NCBI RefSeq assembly: GCF_000378245.1
Contig: NZ_KB899515.1
Location: forward strand, 1-56,255
Reading direction: 5' to 3'
Source: Aromatoleum toluclasticum ATCC 700605
Lineage (GTDB): Bacteria; Pseudomonadota; Gammaproteobacteria; Burkholderiales; Rhodocyclaceae
Length of the DNA: 56,255 nucleotides
Shown here: piece by piece, positions 30,599-53,081 of the stretch
Layout of the letters: each line of letters begins with the position of its first letter
How positions within the stretch are numbered: position 1 is the stretch's first letter
The notes under the pieces: model-generated
Databases searched by the model: none
Seen by the model: the letters and a program-made list of their open reading frames with translations, nothing else
What the model was told of the DNA's origin: nothing
Program-made: the position numbers and the translations under genes

Positions 30599-31953
<1,355 letters not shown>

Positions 31954-31965
31954 CCCGCGCGGGTC

Positions 31966-32041
31966 TGTGGGTGCGGCTTCAGCCGCGAATGGGCCGCGCC
32001 ACGTGCGACACCGCTGATTCGCGGCTGAAGCCGCTCCCACA
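31966..32041. repeat. REP-like inverted repeat, 25-bp arms
   Basis: The arm at 31966-31990 (TGTGGGTGCGGCTTCAGCCG...) pairs with the arm at 32017-32041 (...CGGCTGAAGCCGCTCCCACA) with a single mismatch, around a 26-base centre. The GTGGGAGCGGCTTCAGCCGCGAAT consensus is a familiar intergenic repeat of pseudomonads and relatives. Lying 13 bases after the aauR stop, it may stabilise or end the long glt transcript. Confidence 0.7.
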
Positions 32042-32141
32042 TGGCGCCTCGCTCTGCGCCGGCGACGCGCCATGCGGCCATCGGCGCCCGGATCCTTCAG
32101 CGGCTAGAATCGACCGGTTTCCCTTCCTCGAGCACAACCCC

Positions 32142-38013: not shown

Positions 38014-38562
38014 TTATACCCAGCCCAGCCCGCCGACCGTTGCGCCGACGACGATCATCCAGATCGGCGCGAGCCGCGTCTTCAAGGTCACCGCCATGGT
38101 CGCGGCGATCAAGGCGAGTGCGCCAAGCCGGTGATCCGGCGCCGCGATGAAAGGCAGGCTCAGCAGCCAGCCGGTCGCGAACACCAGTCCGACCGACACC
38201 GGTGCGAGGCCTGCGGTGAAGGCGCGCACTGCCGGCGTATCGCGGCGCTGCGCTCCCCAGCGGCTCACGCCCAGCGACAGCAGCGTCGACGGCAGCAGGA
38301 TGCCGACCAGCGCGGCGGCGGCGCCGACCACGCCGGCGACCTGGAAGCCCAGCACTGGCACGAACAACACGTTCGGCCCCGGCGCGGCCTGCGCCAGCGC
38401 GATCGCCGTCGTGAAGTCGGCGTCGTCGAGCCAGCCGCGCTCGGCGACGAGGAAGCGGTGCATCTCGGGCGCGGTCGACATCGCGCCGCCGATCGACAGC
38501 AGCGAGAGCATCAGGAAGCGCAGGAAAAGGTCGAAAAGATCGGCCAGGGGCAGGCTGCTCAT
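38014..38562 (-). CDS. chrA: chromate transporter ChrA, second (C-terminal-type) half
   Basis: A 182-residue protein of about five or six helices with the ChrA (CHR) domain: LSIGGAMSTAPEMHRFLV, then the conserved ALAQAAPGPNVLFVPVLGF. Alone it is a short-chain CHR protein; with the gene before it, which overlaps by four bases (ATGA), it forms a bipartite pair equal to one long ChrA. Such pairs export chromate in characterised species. The ATG at 38562 is chosen because of the overlap; the longer frame begins inside the neighbour. Confidence 0.88.
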   Translation of the reverse strand: MSSLPLADLFDLFLRFLMLSLLSIGGAMSTAPEMHRFLVAERGWLDDADFTTAIALAQAAPGPNVLFVPVLGFQVAGVVGAAAALVGILLPSTLLSLGVSRWGAQRRDTPAVRAFTAGLAPVSVGLVFATGWLLSLPFIAAPDHRLGALALIAATMAVTLKTRLAPIWMIVVGATVGGLGWV

Positions 38563-39149
38563 GGCCGGGCTCCTTCCCGGCGCGCGATGCGCCAACGCGC
38601 GAGGCACCAGCCCGCCGTGCCCAGTCCGATCACGACCCACGCGAGCGGCGCGCGGAACACCGTCACCGCGACCAGCGTCGTCAGCCCGAGCAGCGCGCAC
38701 AGCAGGGGCCCGAGCGCATTGCGGCGCAGTGTGCCCAGCATCTTCAGCGCCATCGCGAGGATCAGCCCTGCAGCGACGGCCCCCATCCCGCGCAGCGCGC
38801 CCGCGACGGCCGGGAAGCTCGCGAGCTGGTTGTAACTGGCGGCCAGCACGATCACCAGCACCAGCGGCGCAAGCAGCATCCCGCTGATCGCCGCGAACGC
38901 GCCGCGCCAGCCGAAGAAGCGGTCACCGAGCATCAGCGACAGATTGACGACGTTGGGGCCGGGCAGCAGCTGCGCGACGGAATAGGCATCGACGAATTCC
39001 TCCCGCGTCATCCAGCGTCGGCGATCGACGAGTTCGCGCTGCGCCACGGCGAGCACCCCGCCGAAGCCTTGCAGCGCAAGCACGGTGAAGGCGATGAACA
39101 GATGCCACGGCGAGTGCGGGCGGGGATGGTCTGGCGTGGCGGGTGTCAC
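38559..39149 (-). CDS. chrA: chromate transporter ChrA, first (N-terminal-type) half
   Basis: A 196-residue CHR-domain membrane protein: LQGFGGVLAVAQRELVDRR, then DAYSVAQLLPGPNVVNLSL, which match the conserved G-rich and PGP motifs of the family. It is the partner of the gene at 38014 and is translated first. Bipartite short-chain ChrA transporters work as heterodimers with opposite membrane orientation. No chrB regulator is nearby. Its upstream region meets the divergent promoter of the amidase operon. Confidence 0.88.
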   Translation of the reverse strand: MTPATPDHPRPHSPWHLFIAFTVLALQGFGGVLAVAQRELVDRRRWMTREEFVDAYSVAQLLPGPNVVNLSLMLGDRFFGWRGAFAAISGMLLAPLVLVIVLAASYNQLASFPAVAGALRGMGAVAAGLILAMALKMLGTLRRNALGPLLCALLGLTTLVAVTVFRAPLAWVVIGLGTAGWCLARWRIARREGARP

Positions 39150-39297: not shown

Positions 39298-39341
39298 TTG
39301 ACAGGTAGCAGGCATCGGCTGCATAGTTTGTCCGGACAAAC
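39298..39341 (+). promoter_or_regulatory. sigma-70-type promoter overlapped by perfect 16-bp palindrome (operator of the amidase/TRAP operon)
   Basis: TTGACA (39298-39303) and CATAGT (39322-39327) are separated by 18 bases. The perfect palindrome GTTTGTCCGGACAAAC (39326-39341) overlaps the -10 and start region, and a second, looser repeat TGTCCG-N6-CGGACA overlaps it. This placement predicts repression. The GntR/UTRA regulator inside the downstream operon (49428) is the obvious candidate ligand, by inference. Confidence 0.65.
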
Positions 39342-39372
39342 GGACATACGTACAAACAAGGTGCAGACAAGG

Positions 39373-41043
39373 ATGCAGGCAAAGATGAGTGGCGTCGAGG
39401 GTGTGTGTCACGCCGGGGATTCGGCGAGCTTGCAGGCCCGGTCCGATGCGAGCGCGACGCTGCTTGCGGGACGAGGCTTCTCCATCCCCGATGCGGACCG
39501 CGCCGATGTGCTGGCTGCCGCCGACGAGCTGGCGGCGACGGTCGACCGCGCGGTTGCGGCCCTCGCGCCGGGAGTTGCCCCGGAGCCGTTTGCCGACGCG
39601 CTGCAGCGGCTTGCGCGCCCGCCGCTTGCCGGGGGGAACTGCGCGACGACGGCAGCGGGCGCGGGCGTTGCGCATTGCGAAGACGCGGTGCGCACGCATC
39701 TCGCCTGCATCGACATGGCCGCGCCGGGAAGGCTGGCGTGGCGCGAGATCGATGTCGAACGGGCGCTGCAACGAGCACGCCAGCTCGACGAGGAGCGGGC
39801 GCGGGGCCATGTCCGTGGTCCGCTGCACGGCGTTGTTCTCGGTGTGAAGGATATGTTCGACAGGCTCGGTCGTGTGGCGGGCTGGGGCTCGCCGCTGCGC
39901 GAGGGCGCCGCTCCCGCCGCGGCCGATGCAACGGTGGTCGCGCGTCTGGAGCAGGCCGGCGCGGTGATCCTCGGAACCCAGCATATGGCCGAGTTCGCAT
40001 TGTCGCCGACCGGCCTCAACGCGACCTGGGGGCCGGGGCGCAACCCGTGGAATGTCGAGCATGTTTCGGGCGGCAGCTCCAGTGGCGGAGGCATGACGGT
40101 GGGTGCCGGGCACGTCGCGCTTGCGATCGGTTCGGATACCGGTGGGTCGGTGCGCCTGCCTGCCGCCCTGTGCGGCGTGACGGGGTTGAAGCCGACGCAG
40201 CATCGCATCAGCGTGGCCGGTGCGATGCCGCTGGCGCCGAGCCTCGACTGCGTCGGGCCGCTCGCGCGCTCCGCGGAGTTGTGCGCCCACGCCTACGTGG
40301 CGATGGCCGGCGCCGACTCCGCCGATCCGTCCTGTCTCGCTGCAGCGGTCGTTTCGCCGATTCTCGATGTGCCGGCCGATTGCCTGAGCGTCGCGGTGCC
40401 CCGTTTCGAGGTAGGGACGCTCCTGTCGCGGGACATGCTCGTTGCGCTGGAGCAAGCGACGCGCAGCCTCGCCGATGCCGGCGTTCGCATCGTGCCGGTG
40501 GATCTGCCCGACCTCGATCTGCCCGGGCGACTCGCCTCCGTGCTGCTCGCGACGGAATCCGCCGCGGTGCATCGGCGATGGCTCGAAGACCAGCCCGAGC
40601 GCTATGGGCGCCAGGTCCGGCGGCGCCTGTCGCGCGGCCTGCTGACCGCGAGCGTCGATTATTACGACGCGCTGCGCCTGCGCGCCCCGCTGATGCGCCG
40701 CTTCGTCGAGCGCACGCTCGACGGCGTCGATGCGTTGCTGCTGCCGGTGACGCCCGATGTCGCGCCGCGGGTTGTCGATACCGTCGGCGACGACGAGCGC
40801 CGTCTGGAAGCCGAGTTCGCGAAGCTGTCGTTCTGGACCCGCGGCATCAACTATTTCGGCGTACCCGCGCTGGCGGTGCCCGCGGGCTTCGGTGCGTGCG
40901 GGCTGCCGCTCGGCATCCAGTTCGTCGGTCCGCCGCTCGGCGAGGATCGCGTCCTCGCCCTCGGACACTGCTTCCAGCGCCACACCCGCTGGCACCTCCG
41001 CACCCCCGGCGATGATCGCCACGCAATGAATCCGGCCCGCTGA
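39373..41043 (+). CDS. amidase (amidase-signature family)
   Basis: A 556-residue amidase-signature hydrolase. The catalytic Ser-cisSer-Lys triad is visible: Lys159 in GVKDMFDRLG, Ser236 in GGSSSGGG and the nucleophile Ser259 in GSDTGGSVRLPA. An extra N-terminal region of about 110 residues precedes the core. It is cytoplasmic, with no signal peptide. The start is uncertain (39373 or 39385). As first gene of the C5-dicarboxylate-type operon it would release a carboxylic acid and ammonia from an amide before CoA activation; the actual substrate is unknown. Confidence 0.88.
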   Translation: MQAKMSGVEGVCHAGDSASLQARSDASATLLAGRGFSIPDADRADVLAAADELAATVDRAVAALAPGVAPEPFADALQRLARPPLAGGNCATTAAGAGVAHCEDAVRTHLACIDMAAPGRLAWREIDVERALQRARQLDEERARGHVRGPLHGVVLGVKDMFDRLGRVAGWGSPLREGAAPAAADATVVARLEQAGAVILGTQHMAEFALSPTGLNATWGPGRNPWNVEHVSGGSSSGGGMTVGAGHVALAIGSDTGGSVRLPAALCGVTGLKPTQHRISVAGAMPLAPSLDCVGPLARSAELCAHAYVAMAGADSADPSCLAAAVVSPILDVPADCLSVAVPRFEVGTLLSRDMLVALEQATRSLADAGVRIVPVDLPDLDLPGRLASVLLATESAAVHRRWLEDQPERYGRQVRRRLSRGLLTASVDYYDALRLRAPLMRRFVERTLDGVDALLLPVTPDVAPRVVDTVGDDERRLEAEFAKLSFWTRGINYFGVPALAVPAGFGACGLPLGIQFVGPPLGEDRVLALGHCFQRHTRWHLRTPGDDRHAMNPAR

Positions 41044-41085
41044 GAACGCCGGCAACAGGGCACCCCTACCCACCAAGGAGAAGAC

Positions 41086-42078
41086 ATGAAGATTGCACTG
41101 AATCGCCTCGCACGATGGTCGCTGACGCTTGCCGCCGCATGGTGCACACAGGTCGGAGCGGCCGAAATGATCATCACCAGCGAAGTGCCGATCTCGACCA
41201 ACCCCAGCCCCTATATCGAGCAGTTCATCGCCGAGGTCGGCAAGCGCACCAATGGTGCGATTCAGGGCAAGTACTTCCCCGCCTCGCAGCTCTACAACGA
41301 TCGCGACGCGCTCGCCGCGCTGGGAACGGGCGGCGTGCATATGGTCTGGCCCGTGGCGAGCCGCCTCGAGCTGATGGACCAGCGTCTGGGCGCGATCAGC
41401 CTGCCTTTCCTGCTCGGAACGCGCGAGATGACCAACCGCTGCTTCGCCGACGGCTTCACGCGCCAGGTGTCGGGCTACATCGAGCCGCGCGGCGTCAAGG
41501 TGCTGGGCTTCCTGCGCACGGCCGAGCTGCTCTTCATCATGAAGAGCCGCGACGTGCAGCGTGTCGAGGACCTGAAGGGGCAGAAGGTCCGCGTCGTGGG
41601 CGGCAAGGTGATGCTCGATGCGATGCAGTCGATCCACGCGAGCCCGGTATCGATGGCCGCCTCGGAAATGTCCGCGGCCCTCGCGCAGGGCGCGATCGAC
41701 GGGGCGATGACCTCGCCGGCGGGCTGGGTGGATGTGCTCGGGAGCACCGCGAAATTCGCGGCGCTCGCCCCCGGCATGGCGCTGGCGACCTCGGCCGTCG
41801 CAGTCGACAAGGCCTGGTTCGACGCCCTCCCCGAAGCCCAGCGCAAGGTCATCCAGACCGCGCTCGACGAAATCATCGTGCGCCAGTGGAAAGAGACCGT
41901 CGTCAAGGACGAGCAACTGGTGAAGCAGATGGTCGATCAGGGCGGCACCTACCGCGTGCTCTCCGCCGCCGAAACGGAGCGCTTGAAGGAGCGCTTCCTT
42001 GGCGCCGGCCAGGGCTTCCGCGACAAGCATCCGGACGTGTTCAGGCAGGTCGAGGATCTGCGCAAGACCTGCCTGTGA
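41086..42078 (+). CDS. dctP: TRAP transporter periplasmic solute-binding protein (DctP-like), first copy
   Basis: A 330-residue DctP-family binding protein with a signal peptide (about residues 1-25, ending GAA-E). The family core TNGAIQGKYFPASQLYNDRDALAALGTGGVHM, the LRTAELLFIMKSRDVQ region and KVRVVGGKVMLDAM, with the Arg that binds the carboxylate, are present. It is a clear paralogue of the protein at 42757 in the same operon. AAGGAGAA precedes the ATG. The ligand is likely a dicarboxylate or a half-amide, by context. Confidence 0.92.
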   Translation: MKIALNRLARWSLTLAAAWCTQVGAAEMIITSEVPISTNPSPYIEQFIAEVGKRTNGAIQGKYFPASQLYNDRDALAALGTGGVHMVWPVASRLELMDQRLGAISLPFLLGTREMTNRCFADGFTRQVSGYIEPRGVKVLGFLRTAELLFIMKSRDVQRVEDLKGQKVRVVGGKVMLDAMQSIHASPVSMAASEMSAALAQGAIDGAMTSPAGWVDVLGSTAKFAALAPGMALATSAVAVDKAWFDALPEAQRKVIQTALDEIIVRQWKETVVKDEQLVKQMVDQGGTYRVLSAAETERLKERFLGAGQGFRDKHPDVFRQVEDLRKTCL

Positions 42079-42146
42079 GCGGTGCTGCGTGATCCCCGAC
42101 GGGCCGGCCGCGGCCGGTCATCCATTCAATATACGAGGAGATATCA

Positions 42147-42659
42147 ATGAGCGTCAGACAGATCGGCGAACAACGCTACCGGGGCCAGATCGGCCGTTAC
42201 TTCGAGGATTTCGAGGTGGGCGACGTGTATGAGCACCGCCCCGGCCGCACGCTGACCGACAACGACAACATCCAGTTCTCGCTGCTGACGATGAACTACC
42301 ACCCGATGCACTGCGACGCGGCGTTCGCCGGGAAGAGCGAATTCGGCAAGCTGCTGATGAACAGCGGCCTGACGCTCGCGGTGGTGCTGGGCATGACGGT
42401 GCCGGACGTCAGCGGCAAGGCGATCGCCAACCTCGGCTGGAAGGAAATCAAGCTGCTCGCCCCGGTGTTCGCCGGCGACACGATCTACGCCGAGTCCGAG
42501 GTGCTGGAAAAGCGCGAATCGAAATCCCGCCCGACGCAGGGCATCGTCACGGTGCGCACGCTCGGCAAGAAGGCAGACGGCACCGTTTTCATGGAGTTCG
42601 TGCGCAGCGCGCTGATCCAGAAGCGCGAAGGCAGCCAGGATGCCGACGCCGGTTATTGA
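42147..42659 (+). CDS. MaoC-family enoyl-CoA hydratase (candidate itaconyl/mesaconyl-CoA hydratase)
   Basis: A 170-residue hot-dog-fold protein of the MaoC dehydratase family. FEDFEVGDVYEHRPGRTLTDNDN carries the catalytic Asp-Asn region, followed by NYHPMHCDAAFA with the catalytic His, and NLGWKEIKLLAPVFAGDTI. In the Pseudomonas itaconate pathway a MaoC-type protein (Ich) hydrates itaconyl-CoA to citramalyl-CoA. The neighbouring CoA-transferase and CitE-like genes support that role here, without proof. GAGGAG lies before the ATG. It is oddly placed between two dctP genes. Confidence 0.82.
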   Translation: MSVRQIGEQRYRGQIGRYFEDFEVGDVYEHRPGRTLTDNDNIQFSLLTMNYHPMHCDAAFAGKSEFGKLLMNSGLTLAVVLGMTVPDVSGKAIANLGWKEIKLLAPVFAGDTIYAESEVLEKRESKSRPTQGIVTVRTLGKKADGTVFMEFVRSALIQKREGSQDADAGY

Positions 42660-42756
42660 GCCGCTGCGGCAGGGCCGCCCGGCAGCGGTGTGCCGCGCAA
42701 CGCAAACACAAAGCGGGCGACACCGCCCCGACACAACCGAGAGGAGACCTTCCGTG

Positions 42757-43758
42757 ATGACATTCAAGCGTCTTGCCGCAAGTGCGATCGCTTCCCTGTG
42801 CGTGATGGCGCACGCGGGCGGCGCATCGGCCGCCGATCTGGTCCTGCCCAGCGAGGTCGCCGCGACCCACTGGAAGACCAAGTACATGAACCAGTTTGCC
42901 GAGGGCGTCGCCAAGCGCACCAACGGCGCACTCAACGTGAAGGTCTTCCCCGCGGGGCAGCTCTATAACGACCAGGACGCCCTCGCGGCGCTGGGCACCG
43001 GCGCCGTGCACATGGTGTGGCCGGTCGCGGTGCGCGTCGAATCGATCGAACCGCGCACCGGCATCGTCAATCTGCCGTTCGCGGTCAGCGACGACATGAT
43101 GACGAACCAGTGCTTTTCCGACGGGCTCACGACCTTGATGTCGTCGTATGTCGAGCCCCGCAACCTGAAGATCCTCGGCTTCCTGCGCACCGCCGACCTG
43201 TTCTTCGTGTTCCGCAACCGCGACGTGCAGAAGATGGAGGACCTGAAGGGCGCGAAGATCCGCGTTACCGGCGGCAAGGTGTTCCAGGAGACGATGAAGA
43301 GCCTCAACACCAGCCCGGTGTCGATGGCCGCCTCGGAGATGAGCACCGCGCTCGCGCAAGGGGCGATCGACGGCGTGTATACCTCGCCGGCCGGCTGGGC
43401 GGAGATGATAGGCATGACCGGAAAGTACGCGTGGTACGTCCCCGGCTTCTCGCTGACGACTTACGCGATCGTCGTCGACAAGGGCTGGATCGACGGTCTG
43501 CCGGAAGCGCAACGCAAGGCCATCACCGATACGATCAAGGAGATCACGCCGCGCCAGTGGAAGGAAGTTACCGCCGAGGACAAGCAACTCGTCGACAAGA
43601 TGGTCGCCCAGGGTGCCGTGTTCCGCACCGCAACGCCCGAGGAAGCGAAGCGCTGGCGCGCGCTCGCCAAGAGCAACGAGAAGGTGTTCACCGACAAGTA
43701 TCCGGAGGCGATCCAGAAGCTCGGTGAGCTCGAGAAGCGGTGCGGCTATGGCAATTGA
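42757..43758 (+). CDS. dctP: TRAP transporter periplasmic solute-binding protein (DctP-like), second copy
   Basis: A 333-residue binding protein with a signal peptide (ending ASA-A at about residue 25). It is a paralogue of the 41086 product: the same order of TNGALNVKVFPAGQLYNDQD, HMVWPVAVRVE, FLRTADLFFVFRNRDVQ and SPVSMAASEMSTALAQGAID. GAGGAGACC precedes the start (ATG 42757; GTG 42754 is possible). It directly precedes dctQ and dctM and so is likely the primary partner of that membrane complex, with the other copy widening substrate range. Confidence 0.92.
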   Translation: MTFKRLAASAIASLCVMAHAGGASAADLVLPSEVAATHWKTKYMNQFAEGVAKRTNGALNVKVFPAGQLYNDQDALAALGTGAVHMVWPVAVRVESIEPRTGIVNLPFAVSDDMMTNQCFSDGLTTLMSSYVEPRNLKILGFLRTADLFFVFRNRDVQKMEDLKGAKIRVTGGKVFQETMKSLNTSPVSMAASEMSTALAQGAIDGVYTSPAGWAEMIGMTGKYAWYVPGFSLTTYAIVVDKGWIDGLPEAQRKAITDTIKEITPRQWKEVTAEDKQLVDKMVAQGAVFRTATPEEAKRWRALAKSNEKVFTDKYPEAIQKLGELEKRCGYGN

Positions 43759-43768
43759 GGCTGCAGCC

Positions 43769-44353
43769 ATGAAACACGAGTCCATCCCGGCGCCCGCGCC
43801 GACGATTGCCCCGCAGGGGCGCGTGACGGAGCCGCGCCGGAGCTGGTGGCAGTGGTTCGAATCCGGCCCGCTGCTGAGCTTTGCGACGCTGATGTTCCTC
43901 GCCTCGACCGCGATCATGCTGATCGAAGGCGGCAGCCGTTCGCTGTTCGACGAAAGCTATTTCTGGGCCGAGGAGTCGGTGCGTTACCTGATGGTGTGGG
44001 CCTTCTTCCTGACGCTGGGGGCGGCCGGCACCGCGGGCAACCACATCCGCACCGAGTTGCTGGTCGACCACATGCCGGCGGGCATCCGCAAGGCCATGCA
44101 CGTCGTCGCCAGCCTCGTCGGCATCGGCTTCGGCGTGGGGCTCTTCTACGCCTCGCTGCCGCAGGTCCAGCGCTACTACACGATGGGGATGATGACCGAA
44201 TCGAACCTGGACCTGCCGGTGTGGATCCTGTTCCTCGCCATGCCCCTCGGCGCGCTGCTGCTGCTCGGCTACTACCTCCGCTGTCTCGTGCGCGCGCTGC
44301 GCGGCGAGGATCCCTACGCATCCTCGCACGGCCCGACCGGCTCCGAACTCTAG
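43769..44353 (+). CDS. dctQ: TRAP transporter small membrane subunit (DctQ)
   Basis: A 194-residue protein with four membrane helices (about 40-60, 75-95, 115-140 and 155-175). Family features are WAEESVRYLMVWAFFLTLGAA and HIRTELLVDHMPAGIRK between helices 2 and 3. A hydrophilic N-terminal tail of about 30 residues is present. ATG 43769 is preceded by GAGG; ATG 43748, overlapping the previous stop, is the alternative. It forms the QM complex with the next gene. Confidence 0.88.
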   Translation: MKHESIPAPAPTIAPQGRVTEPRRSWWQWFESGPLLSFATLMFLASTAIMLIEGGSRSLFDESYFWAEESVRYLMVWAFFLTLGAAGTAGNHIRTELLVDHMPAGIRKAMHVVASLVGIGFGVGLFYASLPQVQRYYTMGMMTESNLDLPVWILFLAMPLGALLLLGYYLRCLVRALRGEDPYASSHGPTGSEL

Positions 44354-44361
44354 GAGACATC

Positions 44362-45633
44362 ATGCTCATCGCAACTTCCCTCGTGCTGATGCTGGTCCTG
44401 CTCGCCGTCGGCACGCATGTCGCCGTCGCGCTCGGGCTGGTCAGCACGGGCCTGATCCTGATGCTCGACGGCGTGCCCACCACGGTGATCGCGCAGACGG
44501 CCTTCAAGTCGGTCAACAGCTACCCGCTGATGGCGATCCCGATGTTCGTGCTCGCCGGCAACCTGATGATGCGCGGCAACATCGCGAGCCTGATGATCGA
44601 CCTCGTCGGCAGCCTGGTGCGCGCCGTGAAGGGCGGACTCGCGCTGACGGTCATGATCGCCAGCGTGTTCTTCGCCGCGGTGTCCGGCTCCAGCGTCGGC
44701 TCGGCGGCGGCGATCGGCGCCTCCACCGTCGATGGCCTCAAGCGCGAGAAGTACCCCGCGCGCTTCTCTGCCGGCATCGTCGCGGTCGGCGGCACCCTCG
44801 GCCTGATGATCCCGCCCTCGCTCGGCTTCATCCTGATCGGCTCCATCGTCGGCCTGCCGGTGGACAAGCTCTTCATCGCCGGCGTGCTACCGGGCCTGAT
44901 GGAAGCGACCCTGCTGATGATCGCGGTGGTGGTCATTTCGCGTCGCTACAACTTCGGTGCCAGCGCGCAGAGTCCGGACTGGAGCGGCTTCTCGCGCCGC
45001 CTTCCGGGAGCGGGCGCGGCGCTGATGATGCCGGTGCTGATCCTCGGCGCCATCTACACGGGCTACCTGACCCCGACCGAAGTCTCCGCCTTCGCCGCCG
45101 CCTATGCCGTGCTGCTGTGCGTGCTGGTCTACCGCAGTGTCACGCTGGGCGGCGTGTGGCAGGTCGCGAAGGACTCGCTGCTGCAGACGACCATGATCTT
45201 CGCGGTCGTCATGGGCGGGAGCCTGATCGGCTTCGTGCTGGCGCGCATGGGCGTCTCGGCCCAGCTCGTCGCCGCGATCACCGCGATGGACATGAGCCCG
45301 TGGCAGTTCCTGCTGCTCGCGAACGTCGTGCTGCTGATCCTGGGCATGTTCCTCGACGGCGTCGCGATGATCGTGCTGACCGCGCCGCTGCTGTTCCCGG
45401 TTGCCACCGCGCTGGGCATCAACCCGATCCACTTCGCCGTGATCATGGTCGCCAACGTCGAGATCGCAACGCTGACCCCGCCGATCGGCCTCAACCTGTT
45501 TGTCATGAGCGGCATCACCAGGCTGCCCGTGCATGAAGTCGCCCGCGGCGTGCTGCCCTTCTACGGCGTGCGCCTTGTGGGCCTGATGCTCGTCTCCTAC
45601 ATCCCGCAGATCTCTTTGTTCCTTGTCGATTGA
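44362..45633 (+). CDS. dctM: TRAP transporter large membrane subunit (DctM)
   Basis: A 423-residue polytopic protein of the TRAP large-subunit family with about 11-12 helices. Conserved features are FKSVNSYPLMAIPMFVLAGNLM, the Na+-site glycine-rich ASVFFAAVSGSSVGSAAAIG and the second pseudo-repeat VEIATLTPPIGLNLFVM. It moves the ligand delivered by DctP with Na+. AGGAGA precedes the ATG, eight bases after dctQ. Confidence 0.95.
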   Translation: MLIATSLVLMLVLLAVGTHVAVALGLVSTGLILMLDGVPTTVIAQTAFKSVNSYPLMAIPMFVLAGNLMMRGNIASLMIDLVGSLVRAVKGGLALTVMIASVFFAAVSGSSVGSAAAIGASTVDGLKREKYPARFSAGIVAVGGTLGLMIPPSLGFILIGSIVGLPVDKLFIAGVLPGLMEATLLMIAVVVISRRYNFGASAQSPDWSGFSRRLPGAGAALMMPVLILGAIYTGYLTPTEVSAFAAAYAVLLCVLVYRSVTLGGVWQVAKDSLLQTTMIFAVVMGGSLIGFVLARMGVSAQLVAAITAMDMSPWQFLLLANVVLLILGMFLDGVAMIVLTAPLLFPVATALGINPIHFAVIMVANVEIATLTPPIGLNLFVMSGITRLPVHEVARGVLPFYGVRLVGLMLVSYIPQISLFLVD

Positions 45634-45646
45634 GGAAGAACCCCCG

Positions 45647-47050
45647 ATGAATGCTCCTAAATCCCCCGCCGACGCGCTGATCGCGCCGATCCTCGCAAAA
45701 TTCGCCGCCGATCTCGACTACGATGCCATCCCCGCCGAGGTGCGCGAACGCGCGAAGTACCTGATCCTCGACGCCGTCGGCATCGCCCACGCCTCGACCC
45801 GTTACGACTTCGCCCACCGCTCGCTGTCGGCCGTGTCCGAGTTCGGCCGCGGCGACGCCGACGTCATCGGCCTCTCAGCCAAGCTCACGCTGCGCGACGC
45901 GGTGCTGATGAACGGCATCCTCGTGCATGGCCTGGACTACGACGACACCCACGCCCGCGGCGTCATCCACGCCACCGCGAGCTGCTTTCCGACGGCGCTG
46001 GGCGTGGCCGCGCAAGCGGGCCTCACCGGCCGCGAACTCCTCGCCGCCTACATCGTCGGCATGGAAGTCGCGACCCGTCTCGGCTCGGTCGCGAAGGGCG
46101 GCTTCCACCAGACCGGCTTCCACCCGACCGGCCTCATCGGCACCTTCGCCTGCGCGCTGATCGCCGGCCGCCTGCACGGCATGAACGCCGATCAGCTCGC
46201 GATGGCGCAGGGCATCGCGCTCTCGGTCGCCTCCGGCAGCCTCGAGTTCCTGCAGGACGGCGCGTGGACCAAGCGCATGCACCCCGGCTGGGCTGGGGTC
46301 GCCGGCATCACTGCGGCCACGCTCGCGAAGCACGGTTTCGTCGGCCCGAAAGCGGCCTACGAAGGGCGCTTCGGCCTCTACAACAGCCACCTCGGCGCGC
46401 TCGCCGAGAACTGCGACTACGTGCTCGCCACCGAAGGTCTCGGCGAAGCCTGGGAGGTCGCCCAGGTTGCGGTCAAGCCGCTGCCCGCCTGCCACTTCAC
46501 GCACTCCTGCGCCGATTCGGCGATGGCGATCGCCCGCGCGCACACCTTCCGCCCCGAGGACATCGAGAAGGTGAGGGCGCTGATCCCTGCCGAGGTCGTC
46601 AAGACCGTGTGCGAGCCGGTCGTCAACAAGCAGAAGCCGCAGAACAGCTACGACGCCCAGTTCAGCATCCCGTATGCGGTGGCCTCAGGCCTCGTGCGCG
46701 GGCGCTTCGGCCTGGGCGAGCTGGAGGACGGCGCGCTCGCAGATCCCGCCGTGCTGGCAGTCGCCGGCAAGGTCGCCTACGAGGTCGACCCGAACTCGGC
46801 CTTCCCCAGGTACTACTCCGGCGAAGTCATCGTCACGCTGCGCGACGGGCGCGAATTCACGCACCGCGAGCACGTCAACCGCGGCGCCGCCGACCGCCCG
46901 ATCACCAACGAGGAAGTCGTCGACAAGTACATGGAGAACGCCTGCCTCGCCGTGTCGCCGCAGCGCGCACGCCAGATCCGCGACACCGTGCTCGCGCTCG
47001 ACGAAATGCCCGCCGGCGCCTTCTCCGACGCGCTCGCCGCACAGGCCTGA
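45647..47050 (+). CDS. MmgE/PrpD-family protein
   Basis: A 467-residue protein of the MmgE/PrpD fold (2-methylcitrate dehydratase, cis-aconitate decarboxylase, immune-responsive gene 1 relatives). Visible segments are LDAVGIAHAS, HGLDYDDTHARGVIHATASCFP, FHPTGLIGTFACALIAGRL and KPLPACHFTHSCADSA, which hold the conserved Asp/His/Lys active-site residues. The equivalent gene is present in the itaconate cluster of P. aeruginosa, where its exact reaction is not established. A C5/C6 tricarboxylate or isomer interconversion is plausible. GAGGAAG precedes ATG 45647. Confidence 0.85.
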   Translation: MNAPKSPADALIAPILAKFAADLDYDAIPAEVRERAKYLILDAVGIAHASTRYDFAHRSLSAVSEFGRGDADVIGLSAKLTLRDAVLMNGILVHGLDYDDTHARGVIHATASCFPTALGVAAQAGLTGRELLAAYIVGMEVATRLGSVAKGGFHQTGFHPTGLIGTFACALIAGRLHGMNADQLAMAQGIALSVASGSLEFLQDGAWTKRMHPGWAGVAGITAATLAKHGFVGPKAAYEGRFGLYNSHLGALAENCDYVLATEGLGEAWEVAQVAVKPLPACHFTHSCADSAMAIARAHTFRPEDIEKVRALIPAEVVKTVCEPVVNKQKPQNSYDAQFSIPYAVASGLVRGRFGLGELEDGALADPAVLAVAGKVAYEVDPNSAFPRYYSGEVIVTLRDGREFTHREHVNRGAADRPITNEEVVDKYMENACLAVSPQRARQIRDTVLALDEMPAGAFSDALAAQA

Positions 47051-47086
47051 CCCCCGACCCCGACCGACGAACACAGAGACCAAGAC

Positions 47087-48244
47087 ATGAACATGGCTAC
47101 GCATCTTGAAGAGGAACAGCTGATCCTCGATTCGCTCGACCGCTTCCTCGAGACCGAAGTGAAGCAGCACGTGCATCAGCTCGAGCACGACGACATCTAC
47201 CCGGCTGAGATCGTCGAGAAGATGAAGGAGCTGGGCCTCTTCGGCTGCATCATCGACACCGACTACGGCGGCCTGGGCCTCTCGACCTCCACCTACGCGA
47301 AGATCGTCGCGCGCATCTCCGAGACCTGGATGTCGCTGTCCGGCATCATCAACTCGCACCTCATCATGGCCGCCGCGGTGCAGCGCCACGGCACGCCCGA
47401 ACAAAAGGCGTACTACCTGCCCAAGTTCGCCACCGGCGAGCTGCGCGGCGGCATCGGCCTCACCGAGCCCGACGCCGGCACCGACCTGCAGGCCATCCGC
47501 ACGGTCGCGAAGCGCGACGGCGACCACTACGTCGTCAATGGCACCAAGACCTGGATCACCAACAGCATGTACGGCAACACCATCGCGCTGCTGGTGAAGA
47601 CCGACCCCGCCGCCCAGCCGCGCCACAAGGGCATGAGCCTGCTGATCGCCGAGAAGGGCCCCGGCTTCAAGGTCGCCCGCAAGCTCGAAAAGCTCGGCTA
47701 CCGCGGCATTGACACCTGCGAGCTGGTGTTCGAGGACTACCGCGTGCCGGTCGACCGCCTCATCGGCGGCGTCGAAGGCGTCGGCCTCAAGCAGGTGCTG
47801 TCGGGCCTCGAGCTGGGCCGCATCAACGTCGCCGCGCGCGGCGTCGGCGTCGCCAGCGCCGCGCTGAAGGAGGCGACCAGCTACTCGCAGGTGCGCAAGA
47901 CCTTCGGCAAGCCGATCTGCGAGCACCAGGCCATCCAGCTCATGCTCGGCGAGATGGCGACCCGCGTCGAAGCCTCGCGCCTCCTGGTCGAATCGGCCGC
48001 CAGGGCCTACGACGAAGGCCGCCGCTGCGACATGGAAGCCGGCATGGCCAAGTACTTCGCCACCGAATCGGCGGTGACCAACGCGATGGATGCGATGCGC
48101 ATCCACGGCGGCTATGGCTACTCCAAGGAATACAACATCGAGCGCCTGTACCGCGACGCGCCGCTGCTGACCATCGGCGAAGGCACCAACGAACTGCAGC
48201 GCATCATCATCGCCAAGCAACTCATCGAGAGGAACCCGGCATGA
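47087..48244 (+). CDS. acyl-CoA dehydrogenase
   Basis: A 385-residue FAD enzyme of the acyl-CoA dehydrogenase family. GIGLTEPDAGTDLQ and KTWITNSMYGN are the flavin and substrate loops, RKTFGKPICEHQAIQ is the helix of the C-terminal domain, and Glu365 in IGEGTNELQRIII is the probable catalytic base. In this context it could oxidise a methylsuccinyl-CoA- or glutaryl-CoA-type substrate to the enoyl-CoA used by the MaoC hydratase; this is inference. Its stop overlaps the CoA-transferase start by four bases. Confidence 0.92.
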   Translation: MNMATHLEEEQLILDSLDRFLETEVKQHVHQLEHDDIYPAEIVEKMKELGLFGCIIDTDYGGLGLSTSTYAKIVARISETWMSLSGIINSHLIMAAAVQRHGTPEQKAYYLPKFATGELRGGIGLTEPDAGTDLQAIRTVAKRDGDHYVVNGTKTWITNSMYGNTIALLVKTDPAAQPRHKGMSLLIAEKGPGFKVARKLEKLGYRGIDTCELVFEDYRVPVDRLIGGVEGVGLKQVLSGLELGRINVAARGVGVASAALKEATSYSQVRKTFGKPICEHQAIQLMLGEMATRVEASRLLVESAARAYDEGRRCDMEAGMAKYFATESAVTNAMDAMRIHGGYGYSKEYNIERLYRDAPLLTIGEGTNELQRIIIAKQLIERNPA

Positions 48245-49431
48245 GTCTCCCCCTTGCAGGCGTGCGCATCATCGCCGTCGAACAGTACGGCGCGGGTCCC
48301 TTCGGCACGCAACATCTGGCGGACCTCGGCGCCGAGGTCATCAAGGTCGAGAACCCGGGCGACGGCGGCGACGTCGGCCGCAGCGTCGGCCCCTATTTCT
48401 TCGACAAGGGCGACAGCCACTTCCACCAGTCCTTCAACCGCAACAAAAAGAGCATCACGCTCGACCTGAAGAAGCCCGAAGGGCAGGAAGTGCTGCATGA
48501 GCTCGTGAAGACCGCCGACGCCGTGTTCGACAACCTGCGCGGCGACATCCCTGCAAAGCTCGGCCTCACCTACGAGCACCTGAAGGAATACAACCCGAAG
48601 ATCGTCTGCGGCCACCTCTCCGCCTACGGCCGCACGGGCGAGCGCGCGAAGTGGCCCGGCTACGACTACCTGATGCAGGCCGAAGCCGGCTACCTCTCCG
48701 TCACCGGCGAACCCGACGGCCCGCCGGCGCGCTTCGGCATCTCCATCATCGACATGATGACCGGCACCATGTCCGCGCTGGGCCTCGTGTCGGCCATCGT
48801 CGGCGCCCGCGCGAGCGGCGTGGGGCGCGATGTCGACGTCAGCCTCTTCGACGTCGCCATGCACAACCTCAGCTACCTCGCCACCTGGTACCTCAACGAA
48901 GGCGTGGTCACCGGCCGCGCGCCGCGCTCCGCCCACCCCTCGCTTACGCCCAGCCAGCTCTACCGTACGCAGGACGGCTGGATCTTCATCATGTGCAACA
49001 AGGAGAAATTCTTCGGCGTGCTGTGCGAACTGATCGGCCGGCCCGAATGGGCGACCGATCCGCGTTTCGAGAACTTCGCCGCGCGCCTCGCGCACCGCGA
49101 CGAACTCACCGAGATGCTGGACGCCGTGCTGATGACGGCCACAACTGCCGACTGGATGCAGCGCTTCGGCGGCAGCGTGCCCGCCGCCCCGGTCAACGAC
49201 ATCGCCCAGGCGCTCGACAATCCGTTCGCGCGCGAGCAGGGCCTCGTCGTAGATGTCCCGCACCCCGCGCGCGGCACCATCCGCACCGTCGCCTGCCCGA
49301 TCCGCTGCCCCGGCGAGGAGCTCCCCAGACGTCCCGCGCCCCGGCTCGGAGCGGATACACTCGCCGTCCTCGGCAGCATCAGGGACGATGACCAATGGAT
49401 CGCGAACTTGAGCAGGAATCAGGTGATATGA
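48241..49431 (+). CDS. class III CoA-transferase (CaiB/BaiF family)
   Basis: A 396-residue family III CoA-transferase. The catalytic Asp171 is in FGISIIDMMTGTMSAL, and AEVIKVENPGDGGDVGR and FNRNKKSITLDLKKPEG are the typical N-terminal CoA-binding stretches. In the itaconate pathway the homologue Ict moves CoA from succinyl-CoA to itaconate. It overlaps the dehydrogenase upstream (ATGA) and the GntR gene downstream (the GntR start lies within its last codons), so all are tightly coupled. Confidence 0.92.
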   Translation: MSLPLAGVRIIAVEQYGAGPFGTQHLADLGAEVIKVENPGDGGDVGRSVGPYFFDKGDSHFHQSFNRNKKSITLDLKKPEGQEVLHELVKTADAVFDNLRGDIPAKLGLTYEHLKEYNPKIVCGHLSAYGRTGERAKWPGYDYLMQAEAGYLSVTGEPDGPPARFGISIIDMMTGTMSALGLVSAIVGARASGVGRDVDVSLFDVAMHNLSYLATWYLNEGVVTGRAPRSAHPSLTPSQLYRTQDGWIFIMCNKEKFFGVLCELIGRPEWATDPRFENFAARLAHRDELTEMLDAVLMTATTADWMQRFGGSVPAAPVNDIAQALDNPFAREQGLVVDVPHPARGTIRTVACPIRCPGEELPRRPAPRLGADTLAVLGSIRDDDQWIANLSRNQVI

Positions 49432-50201
49432 ACCCCCAACCCCCGCAGCTGCTGGCCTCCGGTCAGCCCCGCTATGTCGTGCTCGCGCAGGCATTGATGG
49501 ACGACATCGTGTCCGGGCGTTATCCGCTCGACGGCCTGCTGCCGACCGAGATCGAACTGTGCCAGCAGTTCAACGTCAGCCGGCACACCGTGCGCGAGGC
49601 CATCCGGCGACTGAGCGACCTGGGGCTGATCAGCCGGCAGCCGGGGGTGGGCACGCGCGTCAAGGCGACCCAGATCGCCTCGCGCTACACGCAGTCGAGC
49701 GATGGCATAGAGGACCTCTACAAATTCGTCCGCGATGTGCGCCTCGCAGTCTCCGGCCACGGCGACGTGATCGCCGACGAAGAACTCGCCGAACTCCTCG
49801 AATGCAAACGCGGGCAGGCCTGGCTGCACGTCGAGGGCCTGCGCTACGTCGCCGACGAGACGGTGCCGATCGCGCGCACCGACGTCTATATCGCGCGCGC
49901 CTACCGCGGCATCGTCGAGGATCTCGGCGACGAACAGGTCCCCATCTACTCGTTGATCGAAAAGCGCTACGGCCTGCGCGTCGTAGAGGTGCGCCAGCAG
50001 GTGCGCGCGGTCAATATCGGCACCACGGACGCCGCGCGGCTGCATGTCGAACCCGGCTCGGCCGGCCTGCAGGTCGTGCGCAAGTATTTCGCCCCCAACG
50101 ACGAACTGCTCGAAGTCGGCGTCAGTCTTCACCCCGGCGAGCGCTTCAGCTATTCGTCGACACAACGCCTCGAACTCCAGAACGGAGGCAAGGGCCGGTG
50201 A
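49428..50201 (+). CDS. GntR-family regulator with UTRA domain
   Basis: A 257-residue regulator: winged helix (about residues 10-80, VSGRYPLDGLLPTEIELCQQ and HTVREAIRRLSDLG), then a UTRA ligand domain (about 95-245, including VPIARTDVYIARAYRGIVED). HutC/UTRA-type regulators usually repress catabolic operons and are released by a pathway metabolite. It lies within the operon, overlapping the CoA-transferase stop and the MFS start. The palindrome at 39326 is its best candidate site. P. aeruginosa uses a LysR gene at the equivalent cluster instead. Confidence 0.9.
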   Translation: MNPQPPQLLASGQPRYVVLAQALMDDIVSGRYPLDGLLPTEIELCQQFNVSRHTVREAIRRLSDLGLISRQPGVGTRVKATQIASRYTQSSDGIEDLYKFVRDVRLAVSGHGDVIADEELAELLECKRGQAWLHVEGLRYVADETVPIARTDVYIARAYRGIVEDLGDEQVPIYSLIEKRYGLRVVEVRQQVRAVNIGTTDAARLHVEPGSAGLQVVRKYFAPNDELLEVGVSLHPGERFSYSSTQRLELQNGGKGR

Positions 50202-51403
50202 AGGCCGTCGTCATCCCGCTCGCGGCAACCCTTGCCGTGCAAGCGCTCGTCTCCATGGCCGCGCTCACGGCGCCGGTGCTCGCCCCCGAGGCCGGCGCCG
50301 AACTCGGCATCCCCGCCACGCTGGTTGGCGTGTTCGTCGCCCTGATCTACGTCGGCGCGATGCTCTCCAGCCTCGCCAGCGGCAACCTCGTCGTGCGCTA
50401 CGGCGCGATCCGCGTCAGCCAAGTATGCCTCGTCCTGTGCGGTGCCGGTGTGGGGCTGGCGGCCGTCGGATCCCCCGGGCTCATGGCCGTCAGCGCGCTG
50501 CTGATCGGCCTCGGCTACGGCCCCGTGACGCCCGCGAGCTCTCACATCCTCGCGCGCACGACGCCCGCGCATCTGATGGGTTTCATGTTCTCGCTCAAGC
50601 AGACGGGCGTGCCGCTCGGCGGTGCCCTTGCGGGCGCGCTGGTACCGAGCTTCGTGATGTTGTGGGGCTGGCGCGGCGCCGCCTTCGCAGTCTGTGCCGC
50701 CTGTGCAGCGATGGCACTGCTCGCACAGCCGACGCGCGCGGGCTTCGACGCAGACCGCGACCCCGCGCGCCGCATCTCGCTCGCCGGCGTGTTCAAGCCC
50801 CTCGCGATGGTGTTCGCCTATCCGCGCATCCGCGACCTCGCAATCTGCACCTTCTTCTTCGGTGCGATGCAACTGTGCCTGACGACCTATCTCGTCACCT
50901 ACCTGACGGCCGCCTACGGCATGCCGCTCGTCACCGCCGGCCTTGTGCTCGCAGCGACCCAGGGCGCCGGCATCGGCGGACGCCTCGTGTGGGGGCTCGT
51001 CGCCGACCGCTGGATCGCGCCGCGTCGCCTGCTGAGCCTGCTCGCACTGGCGATGGCCGCATCGTCGCTCCTCACCGCCGCCTTCGATCCGCACTGGCCG
51101 CTCGTCGCAGTCATCGCCGTCAGCATGGCCTTCGGCGCCACCGCGATAGGCTGGAACGGCGTCTACCTCGCCGAAGTCGCGCGCCTCGCCCCGGTCGGGC
51201 AGGCCGGCGCACTCACCGGCGGCACCTTGTTCTTCACCTACTTCGGGGTCGTCGCCGGACCACCGGCGTTTGCTGCCCTGGTCGGCGCGACCGGATCCTT
51301 TGCGGCCGGCTACGCCGCGATCGGCAGCGTGATCCTCGCCATCGGCCTCCTGCTGGTTCTGACACAGGCGCGCCGCCCGGCCGAATGCACCGAAACCGCC
51401 TGA
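50198..51403 (+). CDS. MFS transporter
   Basis: A 401-residue major-facilitator protein with twelve predicted helices. The inter-domain loop is at about 180-210 and the A-motif-like GRLVWGLVADRWIAPRRLL between TM8 and TM9 is evident; the first half has SGNLVVRYGAIR in the equivalent loop. The start is GTG 50198, overlapping the regulator's stop (GTGA), with GGAGG upstream. It offers a second transport route besides the TRAP system, perhaps for a related acid or for efflux of an intermediate. No closer substrate assignment is possible. Confidence 0.85.
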   Translation: MKAVVIPLAATLAVQALVSMAALTAPVLAPEAGAELGIPATLVGVFVALIYVGAMLSSLASGNLVVRYGAIRVSQVCLVLCGAGVGLAAVGSPGLMAVSALLIGLGYGPVTPASSHILARTTPAHLMGFMFSLKQTGVPLGGALAGALVPSFVMLWGWRGAAFAVCAACAAMALLAQPTRAGFDADRDPARRISLAGVFKPLAMVFAYPRIRDLAICTFFFGAMQLCLTTYLVTYLTAAYGMPLVTAGLVLAATQGAGIGGRLVWGLVADRWIAPRRLLSLLALAMAASSLLTAAFDPHWPLVAVIAVSMAFGATAIGWNGVYLAEVARLAPVGQAGALTGGTLFFTYFGVVAGPPAFAALVGATGSFAAGYAAIGSVILAIGLLLVLTQARRPAECTETA

Positions 51404-51456
51404 TTCCCTATATCCACTCGACCCCGACTCGCGATAATCACAAAGGAGACACCGGC

Positions 51457-52260
51457 ATGTCCCCCCGTTCCTACCTCTTCGTCCCCGGCGACCGTGCCGA
51501 GCGCTTCGACAAGGCCTGCGCCGCCGGCGCCGACGCAGTGATCATCGACCTCGAGGACGCGGTAACGCCCGAGCGCAAGGCCGCTGCCCGCGAGGCAGTC
51601 CGGGCCTGGCTTGCGGCCGGGGGGCGAGCCTGCGTGCGCCTGAACGGGACCGACACCGAATGGTTCGACGACGACTGCGCGCTGCTCGACCTGTCCGGCG
51701 TCGTCAACGTCGTGCTGCCCAAGGCCGAGCGCGCCGACCAGCTGCAGCGCCTCGCCTCCCGGCTGCGCCCGGGCGTGCGCATCGTTCCCATCGTCGAAAC
51801 GGCGCTCGGTCTGTGGAACGCGCTCGAACTCGCCGGCGCCCCCGGCGTCGAGCGGCTCGCCTTCGGCTCCGTCGATTTCCAGCTCGACTGCGGCATCCTC
51901 GGCGATGGCGAGGAACTCCTCTACGCGCGCTCGCGCCTCGTCCTCGCCTCCGCGATCGCCCGCATCGATGCCCCGGTCGACGGCGTCACCGTTGCAATCC
52001 ACGACGCCGGACAACTGCAGGCCGACACCCGCCGTGCGCGCCAGCTCGGCTTCGGCGCCAAACTGTGCATCCACCCGAAACAGGTCGTTCCCGTGAACCA
52101 CGGCTTCATGCCCGCCGAGGCCGAAGTCACCCACGCCCGCGCGATCATGGCCGCGGTGGACGCCGCAGCCGGAGTCGGGGTCATCACGCTCGACGGCAAA
52201 CTCATCGACCGCCCGGTGATCGAACGCGCACGCAAGATCCTGGAGCGGGTGACAGCATGA
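51457..52260 (+). CDS. CitE-like CoA-ester lyase (candidate citramalyl-CoA lyase)
   Basis: A 267-residue HpcH/HpaI-CitE family lyase. RSYLFVPGDRAERFDKA, IIDLEDAVTPERKA (Mg2+-binding Glu-Asp), the metal ligand Glu in PIVETALGLWNAL and GAKLCIHPKQVVPVN are the family motifs. In the itaconate route the homologue Ccl splits citramalyl-CoA into acetyl-CoA and pyruvate, the step that links this operon to central metabolism. AAGGAGAC precedes ATG 51457. Its stop overlaps the start of the methyltransferase gene. Confidence 0.9.
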   Translation: MSPRSYLFVPGDRAERFDKACAAGADAVIIDLEDAVTPERKAAAREAVRAWLAAGGRACVRLNGTDTEWFDDDCALLDLSGVVNVVLPKAERADQLQRLASRLRPGVRIVPIVETALGLWNALELAGAPGVERLAFGSVDFQLDCGILGDGEELLYARSRLVLASAIARIDAPVDGVTVAIHDAGQLQADTRRARQLGFGAKLCIHPKQVVPVNHGFMPAEAEVTHARAIMAAVDAAAGVGVITLDGKLIDRPVIERARKILERVTA

Positions 52261-52970
52261 ATGCCCCCGTGTCCGCGCCACCCGAACTGATCGCCGACGA
52301 GTTCGCGCTACTCGTGCGCATGTTCCCGCTGGTGGGCGCCCGCGTGCTCGACCTCGGTTGCGGCACGGCCGACATGAGTCGCCGCATATTGAACGAGGGC
52401 GGGGCGGAGCGGGTCGTCGCGATGGAAGCCGACACGGTTCAGCACGCCGCAAACCTCGCCGCCGCGCCCATCCCCGGCCTTCGCTTCGAGCACGGCGGCG
52501 CCGAAGCCATCGCCCATCCCGACGCCACCTTCGACCTCGTGACCATGTTCAAGTCGCTGCACCACGTCCCGGTTGGCCTCATGGACCGCGCGCTCGCCGA
52601 GATCCGCCGGGTACTGCGCCCCGGCGGCGAACTCTACGTCTCCGAACCCGTCTTCGCCGGCGAATTCAACGAAATCATGCGCCTCTTCCACGACGAGGAA
52701 GAAGTCCGCGCCGCAGCCCTCGCCGCGACGCAGCGCGCTACCCGGGCCGGCATCTTCGCGCAGGTCGAGGAACTGCACTTCGTCGCCCCGATCGCCTTCC
52801 GCGATTTCGCGGACTTCGAGGCGCGCATGATGCACGTCACCCATTCCCGATTCGATCTCGATCCGGACCGCATCGAACGCGTTCGCCATCGCTTCGTTCA
52901 GTCGGCGGGTACCGGCGCCGTCCGCTTCGCGCGTCCGATGCGCGTCAACCGCCTGCGCCGGGTCGACTGA
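52257..52970 (+). CDS. class I SAM-dependent methyltransferase
   Basis: A 237-residue Rossmann-fold methyltransferase. Motif I VLDLGCGTADMSRRIL, an acidic end of beta2 (VVAMEAD) and post-motif segments (FDLVTMFKSLHHV, EIRRVLRPGGELYVSEP) are intact. It overlaps the lyase gene (ATGA) and closes the operon ahead of a strong terminator. Its substrate is unknown. Trans-aconitate-type methyltransferases are one precedent for methylating a small polycarboxylate, but the similarity is not specific enough to claim it. Confidence 0.88.
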   Translation: MNAPVSAPPELIADEFALLVRMFPLVGARVLDLGCGTADMSRRILNEGGAERVVAMEADTVQHAANLAAAPIPGLRFEHGGAEAIAHPDATFDLVTMFKSLHHVPVGLMDRALAEIRRVLRPGGELYVSEPVFAGEFNEIMRLFHDEEEVRAAALAATQRATRAGIFAQVEELHFVAPIAFRDFADFEARMMHVTHSRFDLDPDRIERVRHRFVQSAGTGAVRFARPMRVNRLRRVD

Positions 52971-53036
52971 AGCGACCGGCGGCTGTCTCTTCGGCGACCC
53001 ATCTTCCCTCCCTCTCCCGCGAGGTCGCCGAACCTT

Positions 53037-53081
53037 CCCCGGCCGCCCGAACAACGTGTCGGCGGCCGGGATATTTTTTTC
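53037..53081 (+). terminator. rho-independent terminator of the amidase/TRAP/CoA operon
   Basis: CCCGGCCGCC (53038-53047) pairs perfectly with GGCGGCCGGG (53061-53070) across a 13-base loop, and is followed at once by ATATTTTTTT. It lies about 70 bases after the methyltransferase stop. The rest of the gap to the next gene at 53346 shows no coding sequence I can support; it should carry that gene's promoter. Confidence 0.88.

Follow-up and report, generated by a model that had tools for sequence, protein, structure and literature searches.

The window analysed here is a 56,255-nucleotide stretch of DNA from Aromatoleum toluclasticum ATCC 700605 (contig NZ_KB899515.1, positions 1 to 56,255). 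It contains an operon of 13 genes, all on the forward strand at 39373–52970, with intergenic gaps of −11 to 97 bp for the chosen start codons. The first gene encodes an amidase signature enzyme resembling AtzE and GatA, with an N-terminal helical extension (39373–41043). It is followed by dctP1, the binding protein of a tripartite ATP-independent periplasmic (TRAP) transporter that accompanies the amidase (41086–42078), by a RipB/Ich-like MaoC hydratase (MaoC/MC_hydratase; 42147–42659), and by dctP2, which encodes the core cluster's TRAP binding protein (42757–43758); the roles of the two binding proteins were assigned by family search and co-occurrence. The small and large TRAP membrane subunits, dctQ (43748–44353) and dctM (44362–45633), complete the set of DctP, DctQ and DctM. 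An MmgE/PrpD-family enzyme (45647–47050), an acyl-CoA dehydrogenase (47087–48244), a class III (CaiB/BaiF) CoA-transferase of the CoA_transf_3 family (48241–49431), a GntR/UTRA regulator (49428–50201), a major facilitator superfamily (MFS) transporter (50198–51403), a CitE-like CoA lyase (51457–52260) and a class I S-adenosylmethionine methyltransferase (52257–52970) make up the remainder. Overlaps of 4 bases couple acad to caiB, caiB to gntR, gntR to mfs, and citE to the methyltransferase gene. Family searches of the 13 window proteins reproduced every family name given in an original prediction made from the sequence alone. The gene order that it proposed, 13 same-strand genes between one operator and one terminator, was confirmed by the open reading frames (ORFs), the family searches, a palindrome and a hairpin.

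The palindrome, a perfect 16-bp one at 39326–39341 of the forward strand (GTTTGTCCGGACAAAC), is a candidate GntR-type operator by its conservation before related loci; the putative operator sequence for the operon's GntR regulator has the form TTTGTCCGGACAAA. A putative sigma-70 promoter (TTGACA-18-CATAGT, 39298–39327, forward strand) matched the −35/−10 consensus at 10/12 positions, hexamers that are weak evidence alone since 4 such sites occurred in the scanned 18 kb vs 1.5 expected in shuffles. The operon ends at a predicted intrinsic terminator on the same strand (53038–53080) consisting of a hairpin at 53038–53070 (−25.4 kcal/mol, z −4.1) followed by T's; a simple terminator scan did not list this hairpin, whose loop and bulge probably explain the omission.

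Conservation was followed across 80 related loci, kept from a search of genome contigs with the window MaoC protein (at least 80 exist). Gene counts per locus were obtained by tblastn and are lower bounds, since many loci end at contig or flank edges. The genes maoC, prpD, acad and caiB occurred together in 52/80 loci, and 39/80 contained gntR and citE as well. The source taxa were Beta-, Gamma- and Alphaproteobacteria, and the conserved core order was maoC-[transport]-prpD-acad-caiB-gntR-[mfs]-citE. The slot between maoC and prpD was occupied by TRAP genes in Azoarcus and pseudomonads, by a TctC-type receptor in Bordetella hinzii (likewise in Variovorax, judged by eye), and by an aromatic-acid-type MFS transporter in the scanned Caballeronia and Paraburkholderia loci. 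Electron transfer flavoprotein (ETF) genes followed the cluster in one scanned Caballeronia (L051). Distribution was patchy, a close CoA-transferase being present in 4/41 relatives (E 1e-120) and in 5/274 genomes across the class (E 1e-140), each count including the host genome. The host genome is 5.9 Mb in size, and the nearest named relative in the search was Azoarcus sp. Aa7, with 98% identity in MaoC.

The operator core, at 12/14 bases or better, was found upstream in 47 of the 52 related loci with a placeable first gene. Sites of this quality were present in 0/2218 windows elsewhere in the same loci, in 5/2600 resampled upstream regions and in none of the 455,842 positions of 36 control loci. 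The exact pattern TTTGTMCGKACAAA was found in 28/42 genomes and at a single place in 27 of these 28, while 12 of the 14 genomes without it carried a deviating 12–13/14 site before the cluster (L068 and L073 are outside this count). In the host genome the one exact place lies before the operon; further sites there were rejected, as 1 exact and 3 two-mismatch places compare with 6 for the reversed pattern. Because the gene set recurs across related loci, the operon is a real, conserved unit with its own operator, and a conserved palindrome precedes it as expected for a regulator which, by its GntR and UTRA domains, is of the HutC type.

The same enzyme classes are known from the itaconate-methylsuccinate cluster of Pseudomonas aeruginosa (PA0878–PA0886) and Cupriavidus necator, which comprises Ich, Mcd, Msi, Ict and Ccl (excerpts of PMC12290011). 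In that cluster, (S)-(R)-methylsuccinate isomerase activity belongs to the MmgE/PrpD protein and methylsuccinyl-C4-CoA dehydrogenase activity to the acyl-CoA dehydrogenase (excerpts of PMC12290011; PMC9875883), and the P. aeruginosa genes are served by the TRAP transporter IctPQM (excerpt of PMC12599236). Family searches upheld the predicted equality of the five enzyme classes with this biochemically proven set. The further claim, that the operon expands the P. aeruginosa cluster, was not supported as worded. Median identities between the window type and the known type were 30% for MmgE/PrpD, 33% for the dehydrogenase, 31% for the CoA-transferase and 44% for CitE. Midpoint-rooted FastTree trees placed both types as monophyletic groups for the first three proteins (support 0.85–1.0), with homologs below 43% identity to the window protein (CitE, 42%) left ungrouped (4 PrpD, 4 dehydrogenase, 11 CaiB and 4 CitE sequences). 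The dehydrogenase and CoA-transferase thus fall in clades separate from Mcd and Ict (support 0.90–1.0), and the MmgE/PrpD protein falls in a clade separate from Msi and lacks the motif Tyr described below. For CitE, identity between types (44%) was close to that within the known type (45%); the window type was monophyletic (support 0.72) and the known type was not.

Both cluster types were found to coexist. Stutzerimonas azotifigens carries a known-type cluster (L126) and a window-type cluster (L024); window proteins were 30% (MmgE/PrpD), 32% (dehydrogenase), 33.5% (CoA-transferase) and 42% (CitE) identical to those of L126. The window MaoC protein gave no blastp match to the L126 Ich protein at E 1e-5, and the best Pfam families of the two differ. 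Genome-wide presence searches covered the genomes of 41/80 loci, selected by hand. A known-type msi homolog was present alongside the window-type cluster in 19/41 of them (E 1e-100), and the host genome contained no other Msi-like protein at E 1e-10, the isomerase query used in both searches lacking its first residues. For 16/19 genomes (all but G056, G066 and G074) the known-type regions were inspected. All five genes were adjacent in 8 of the 16 loci, seven Bordetella/Variovorax-type loci had mcd and msi only, and no ccl was called in one. Caballeronia sordidicola PAMC 26633 holds three cluster types, namely the window type (L033), the P. aeruginosa type (L154) and a Yersinia-type Rip cluster (L128). 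Plain orthology with PA0878–0883 was rejected on the trees, identities and coexistence, and the window operon is, on these comparisons, a separately assembled, paralogous relative of the known cluster. The label "itaconate operon" is unsupported because the trees give separate clades for three core enzymes, with identities near 30%, the hydratase belongs to another subfamily, the Yersinia-type (RipB-like) one, both cluster types coexist, and the MmgE/PrpD protein is without the Tyr motif. What the comparisons do support is a third branched-diacid module that runs parallel to the two known ones.

The hydratase and lyase lie closer to known enzymes. Window MaoC was 60% identical to the RipB protein of L128, which itself passes the RipB_Ich cut-off (360 bits vs 340); L128 also encodes a class I CoA-transferase and a RipC protein scoring 300 bits vs a cut-off of 375. 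The window proteins scored below both cut-offs, at 225/340 bits for RipB and 174/375 bits for RipC, and the host genome had no RipC match above cut-off. The RipC cut-off is strict, since the Rip-type L128 lyase and the homolog of the P. aeruginosa-type citramalyl-CoA lyase at L126 (11342–12169; 170 bits, cut-off 375) also fall short of it; the NCBIfam RipC_Ccl model thus misses the latter lyase type. The original prediction was to fall if phylogeny placed the CoA-transferase, MaoC and CitE with unrelated pathways. This holds for the CoA-transferase, which lies elsewhere. MaoC remains closest to RipB/Ich, yet it misses the family cut-off and its active-site segment is changed. CitE is about as near to Ccl as the members of the Ccl group are among themselves, and the lyase looks Ccl-like. 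A second MaoC (45%)–CitE (35%) pair was observed elsewhere in the host genome (L102:9304–15959), followed by two acyl-CoA dehydrogenase homologs (~30%); this row probably belongs to a different pathway.

Residues of the MmgE/PrpD protein were compared among homologs of more than 50% identity. His94, Asp97, His108, His159, Lys209 and Lys277 were invariant in 48/48 sequences and match the proposed carboxylate-binding residues of Msi by motif, the equivalence of L126 residues to the published P. aeruginosa numbering resting on motif spacing. Asp97 replaces a Glu of Msi, as in other aligned family members. Within the invariant motif GFHxxGFHP, His154 was present in 48/48 window-type sequences and aligned without gaps with the Tyr found in IDS epimerase and in a Bacillus homolog. 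In a MAFFT alignment with S. azotifigens Msi, which has a motif shorter by one residue, the Msi Tyr fell in the next column, where the window-type residue is variable; no Tyr was present within the motif in any of 50 aligned window-type sequences. The predicted fold (predicted local distance difference test score 90) scored about equally well against cis-aconitate decarboxylases, IDS epimerase and the Bacillus homolog. A cis-aconitate decarboxylase activity was disfavoured although those folds ranked first, as the aligned enzyme has neither His nor Tyr at this position, and it was set aside because an epimerase agrees better with the rest of the operon's enzymes. In MaoC, the active-site segment read HPxHxD in 80/80 loci (70 by pattern, 10 by eye) vs TQQVHFD in L128 RipB. 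With His for Tyr in one enzyme and HPxHxD in the other, the isomerase and hydratase steps look altered.

An amidase gene was present in 15/80 loci, in four arrangements within the clusters. Among 13 TRAP-type loci, two binding proteins were found in 7/7 loci with an amidase and 0/6 without one, of which L026 has just 623 bases of left-hand room. Orthologues outside the cluster (62–80% identical) were preceded by the operator in 2/2 genomes. Caballeronia hypogeia (G055), whose own cluster has no amidase, is the sole genome with a second TTTGTMCGKACAAA place, which heads a remote amidase and MFS pair on another contig; this amidase is ~78% identical to Paraburkholderia cluster amidases. Achromobacter aestuarii (G074) likewise has a cluster without amidase and an orthologue elsewhere (62% to the L060 amidase), with a 12/14 site of the Bordetella cluster variant 606 bp before the remote match. 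The operator before remote amidases links amide hydrolysis to the pathway by evidence other than gene proximity. The predicted addition of amide hydrolysis was thereby strengthened, together with the recurrence of the gene and the paired second binding protein, and the assignment of amide hydrolysis to the system in many bacteria is, from these sequence patterns, well supported.

Lys159, Ser235/236 and Ser259 of the amidase were invariant in 16/16 sequences and are presumably the catalytic Lys-Ser-Ser triad of the amidase signature family. The predicted model lies nearest GatA and structure 6c62, listed as "Biuret hydrolase", which we take to be AtzE. A small ORF precedes the amidase in Paraburkholderia-type loci; neither it nor the N-terminal extension of the window amidase had a Pfam or NCBIfam match, and profile comparison of the two gave a weak match (probability 2%, E 0.023). 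AtzG is the obligate partner of AtzE in Pseudomonas sp. ADP (excerpt of PMC6219798). The small ORF and the N-terminal helices of the window protein may be an AtzG-like part, and a fused AtzG domain in the window amidase was rejected as only suggestive. Separately, Bordetella genomes (L205:3611–7481 and L204:4413–8391) showed a gene row in which a receptor, TctC-like by eye, is joined by an amidase (37–39%) and an MmgE/PrpD protein (26%), so the MmgE/PrpD and amidase pairing recurs outside the window-type cluster. In L205, a 73-amino-acid ORF overlaps the amidase start.

Methyl transfer, and with it an ester substrate, had also been predicted, and neither gained support. The methyltransferase was found in 4/80 loci, a lower bound as flanks often end near citE, and in a same-genus genome (L105), with nothing linking it to an ester. 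An ester substrate was rejected since none of the 13 genes encodes an esterase, and a methyltransferase would form an ester rather than cleave it. Identity as a trans-aconitate methyltransferase was rejected as well, no such model being among the 25 best of 27 matches. In Methylobacterium L092 and L094 a methyltransferase (35–36%) was observed behind citE.

Gene content, conservation, the shared operator, paralogy and conserved catalytic residues were observed. They somewhat favour a catabolic operon under GntR control that serves a branched 1,4-dicarboxylate and its mono-amide, following the logic of the methylsuccinate pathway with paralogous enzymes. In this pathway, the free diacid would be imported by DctP2-QM and the amide by DctP1 acting on the same QM pair, after which the amidase would release diacid and ammonia. 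The free diacid would be the substrate of the MmgE/PrpD protein, most likely an epimerase supplying the right enantiomer to the class III CoA-transferase, which would form the CoA thioester. The acyl-CoA dehydrogenase would then generate an alpha,beta-unsaturated CoA and pass electrons to ETF, MaoC would hydrate this product, and CitE would split the resulting tertiary hydroxyacyl-CoA into a 2-oxo acid and acetyl-CoA, all under the control of the operon's own GntR protein. No ligand could be read for the binding proteins because TRAP receptors of solved structure are too distant (best E 1.2e-18). A methylsuccinate-like C5 diacid is a possible substrate and a close analogue is as likely: the closeness of lyase and hydratase to known enzymes suggests a compound very near C5, and the changed residues, together with coexistence with known C5 clusters in many genomes, suggest one that may differ from itaconate and methylsuccinate.

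Several observations weigh against the proposed half-amide and diacid operon. Every reaction, the repression and the substrate are deduced from protein families and the proven parallel pathway, on which the predicted activities of all operon proteins rest. The co-occurrence counts are not independent, as the genomes share kinship, and among the 80 loci no prpD match was found in Methylobacterium and some alphaproteobacterial versions. The MmgE/PrpD protein may not be an epimerase, because the Tyr of Msi and IDS epimerase is absent. No amidase match at E 1e-90 was found in 27/41 cluster-bearing genomes, making the amide arm optional, and the amidase paralogs L204–L206 (44–46% to the L060 amidase), which sit in genomes also holding a cluster amidase, had no 12/14 site within their 14 kb.

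The operon could instead be a third, convergently assembled itaconate/methylsuccinate operon, using different enzymes on the same substrates with an amide funnel added. The closeness of CitE to Ccl (44% vs 45% among Ccl) and of MaoC to a RipB above the RipB_Ich cut-off agrees with this, as do the lack of another Msi-like gene or RipC match in the host genome and the convergence described for the P. aeruginosa and Yersinia types (excerpts of PMC12290011). It is nevertheless considered unlikely, given the known-type msi homolog in 19/41 genomes, all five genes adjacent in 8/16 loci, the improbability of three paralogous systems for one substrate in C. sordidicola PAMC 26633, and the His for Tyr and HPxHxD changes. 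The same paralogy and active-site changes would suit a larger or functionalised diacid, such as a C6–C7 alkylsuccinate or a tricarboxylate analogue, from which CitE would release a 2-oxo acid other than pyruvate and the amidase would trim a side-chain amide. CitE-type lyases cleave several acyl-CoAs. The Msi pocket, moreover, could accommodate larger substrates with C3 modifications (excerpts of PMC12290011). The resemblance of CitE to Ccl and the lack of any operon gene, such as a kinase or extra CoA enzymes, pointing to a larger molecule make this distinctly improbable. That the amidase and methyltransferase are mere passengers in a plain diacid operon is hardly credible. Their low counts (15/80 and 4/80, both lower bounds) would permit it, but the amidase shows four in-cluster arrangements, a paired second binding protein and operators at 2/2 remote orthologs; for the methyltransferase, the 4-bp overlap with citE is the sole counterpoint.

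Beyond the favoured half-amide and diacid operon, a bolder proposal is put forward tentatively and is rather doubtful. The cluster would constitute a third pathway for branched diacids, distributed across three proteobacterial classes, with a substrate that is neither itaconate nor methylsuccinate and is often fed as a half-amide through a dedicated importer and AtzE-like amidase, and a His-His acid/base pair would mark the MmgE/PrpD protein as a new catalytic type. If so, soils would contain an unrecognised amidated diacid. An amide substrate would point to an unknown natural nitrogen-bearing diacid and define an uncharacterised MmgE/PrpD clade. Gene classes alone would label such clusters as itaconate degradation, although they make up a distinct group, often found alongside the known type; annotation on that basis would overstate the capacity to use itaconate or methylsuccinate. 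The rare operator offers a direct handle, as a compound relieving the GntR regulator on it would name the substrate. A search of the open literature for this gene set and for half-amides, with subscription papers outside its reach, gave the weak negative that no entry among those listed describes the cluster.

Elsewhere in the window, a divergent chromate-transporter-type gene (38559–39149, reverse strand) lies immediately upstream of the operon, and at 28715–33572 paired genes for a sensor kinase and a sigma-54 response regulator precede an aldehyde dehydrogenase gene.

Four known systems or families resemble the operon or its parts. It shares with the P. aeruginosa/C. necator cluster a hydratase, acyl-CoA dehydrogenase, MmgE/PrpD protein, class III CoA-transferase, CitE-like lyase and linked TRAP transporter, but differs in having its own GntR gene and conserved operator, an amidase arm, a second binding protein and an MFS transporter, and in having no lactonase gene. 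With the Yersinia-type Rip cluster (RipA, RipB, RipC) it has in common a RipB-like single-domain hydratase, whereas its CoA-transferase is class III (CoA_transf_3) and RipA is class I (AcetylCoA_hydro in the L128 gene), and the dehydrogenase and MmgE/PrpD protein are present only in the window operon. The amidase shares with AtzE-AtzG and GatA-GatC the signature fold and the Lys-Ser-Ser triad, and the small upstream ORF or N-terminal helical extension may correspond to their small partner; it scored 295.7 bits vs the AtzE cut-off of 461, still its best NCBIfam match, and has a different gene context. Within the MmgE/PrpD family (IDS epimerase, cis-aconitate decarboxylase, 2-methylcitrate dehydratase and methylsuccinate isomerase), the fold and conserved carboxylate-binding residues are shared, while the window protein forms its own clade relative to the known isomerases and has an invariant His where IDS epimerase has Tyr.

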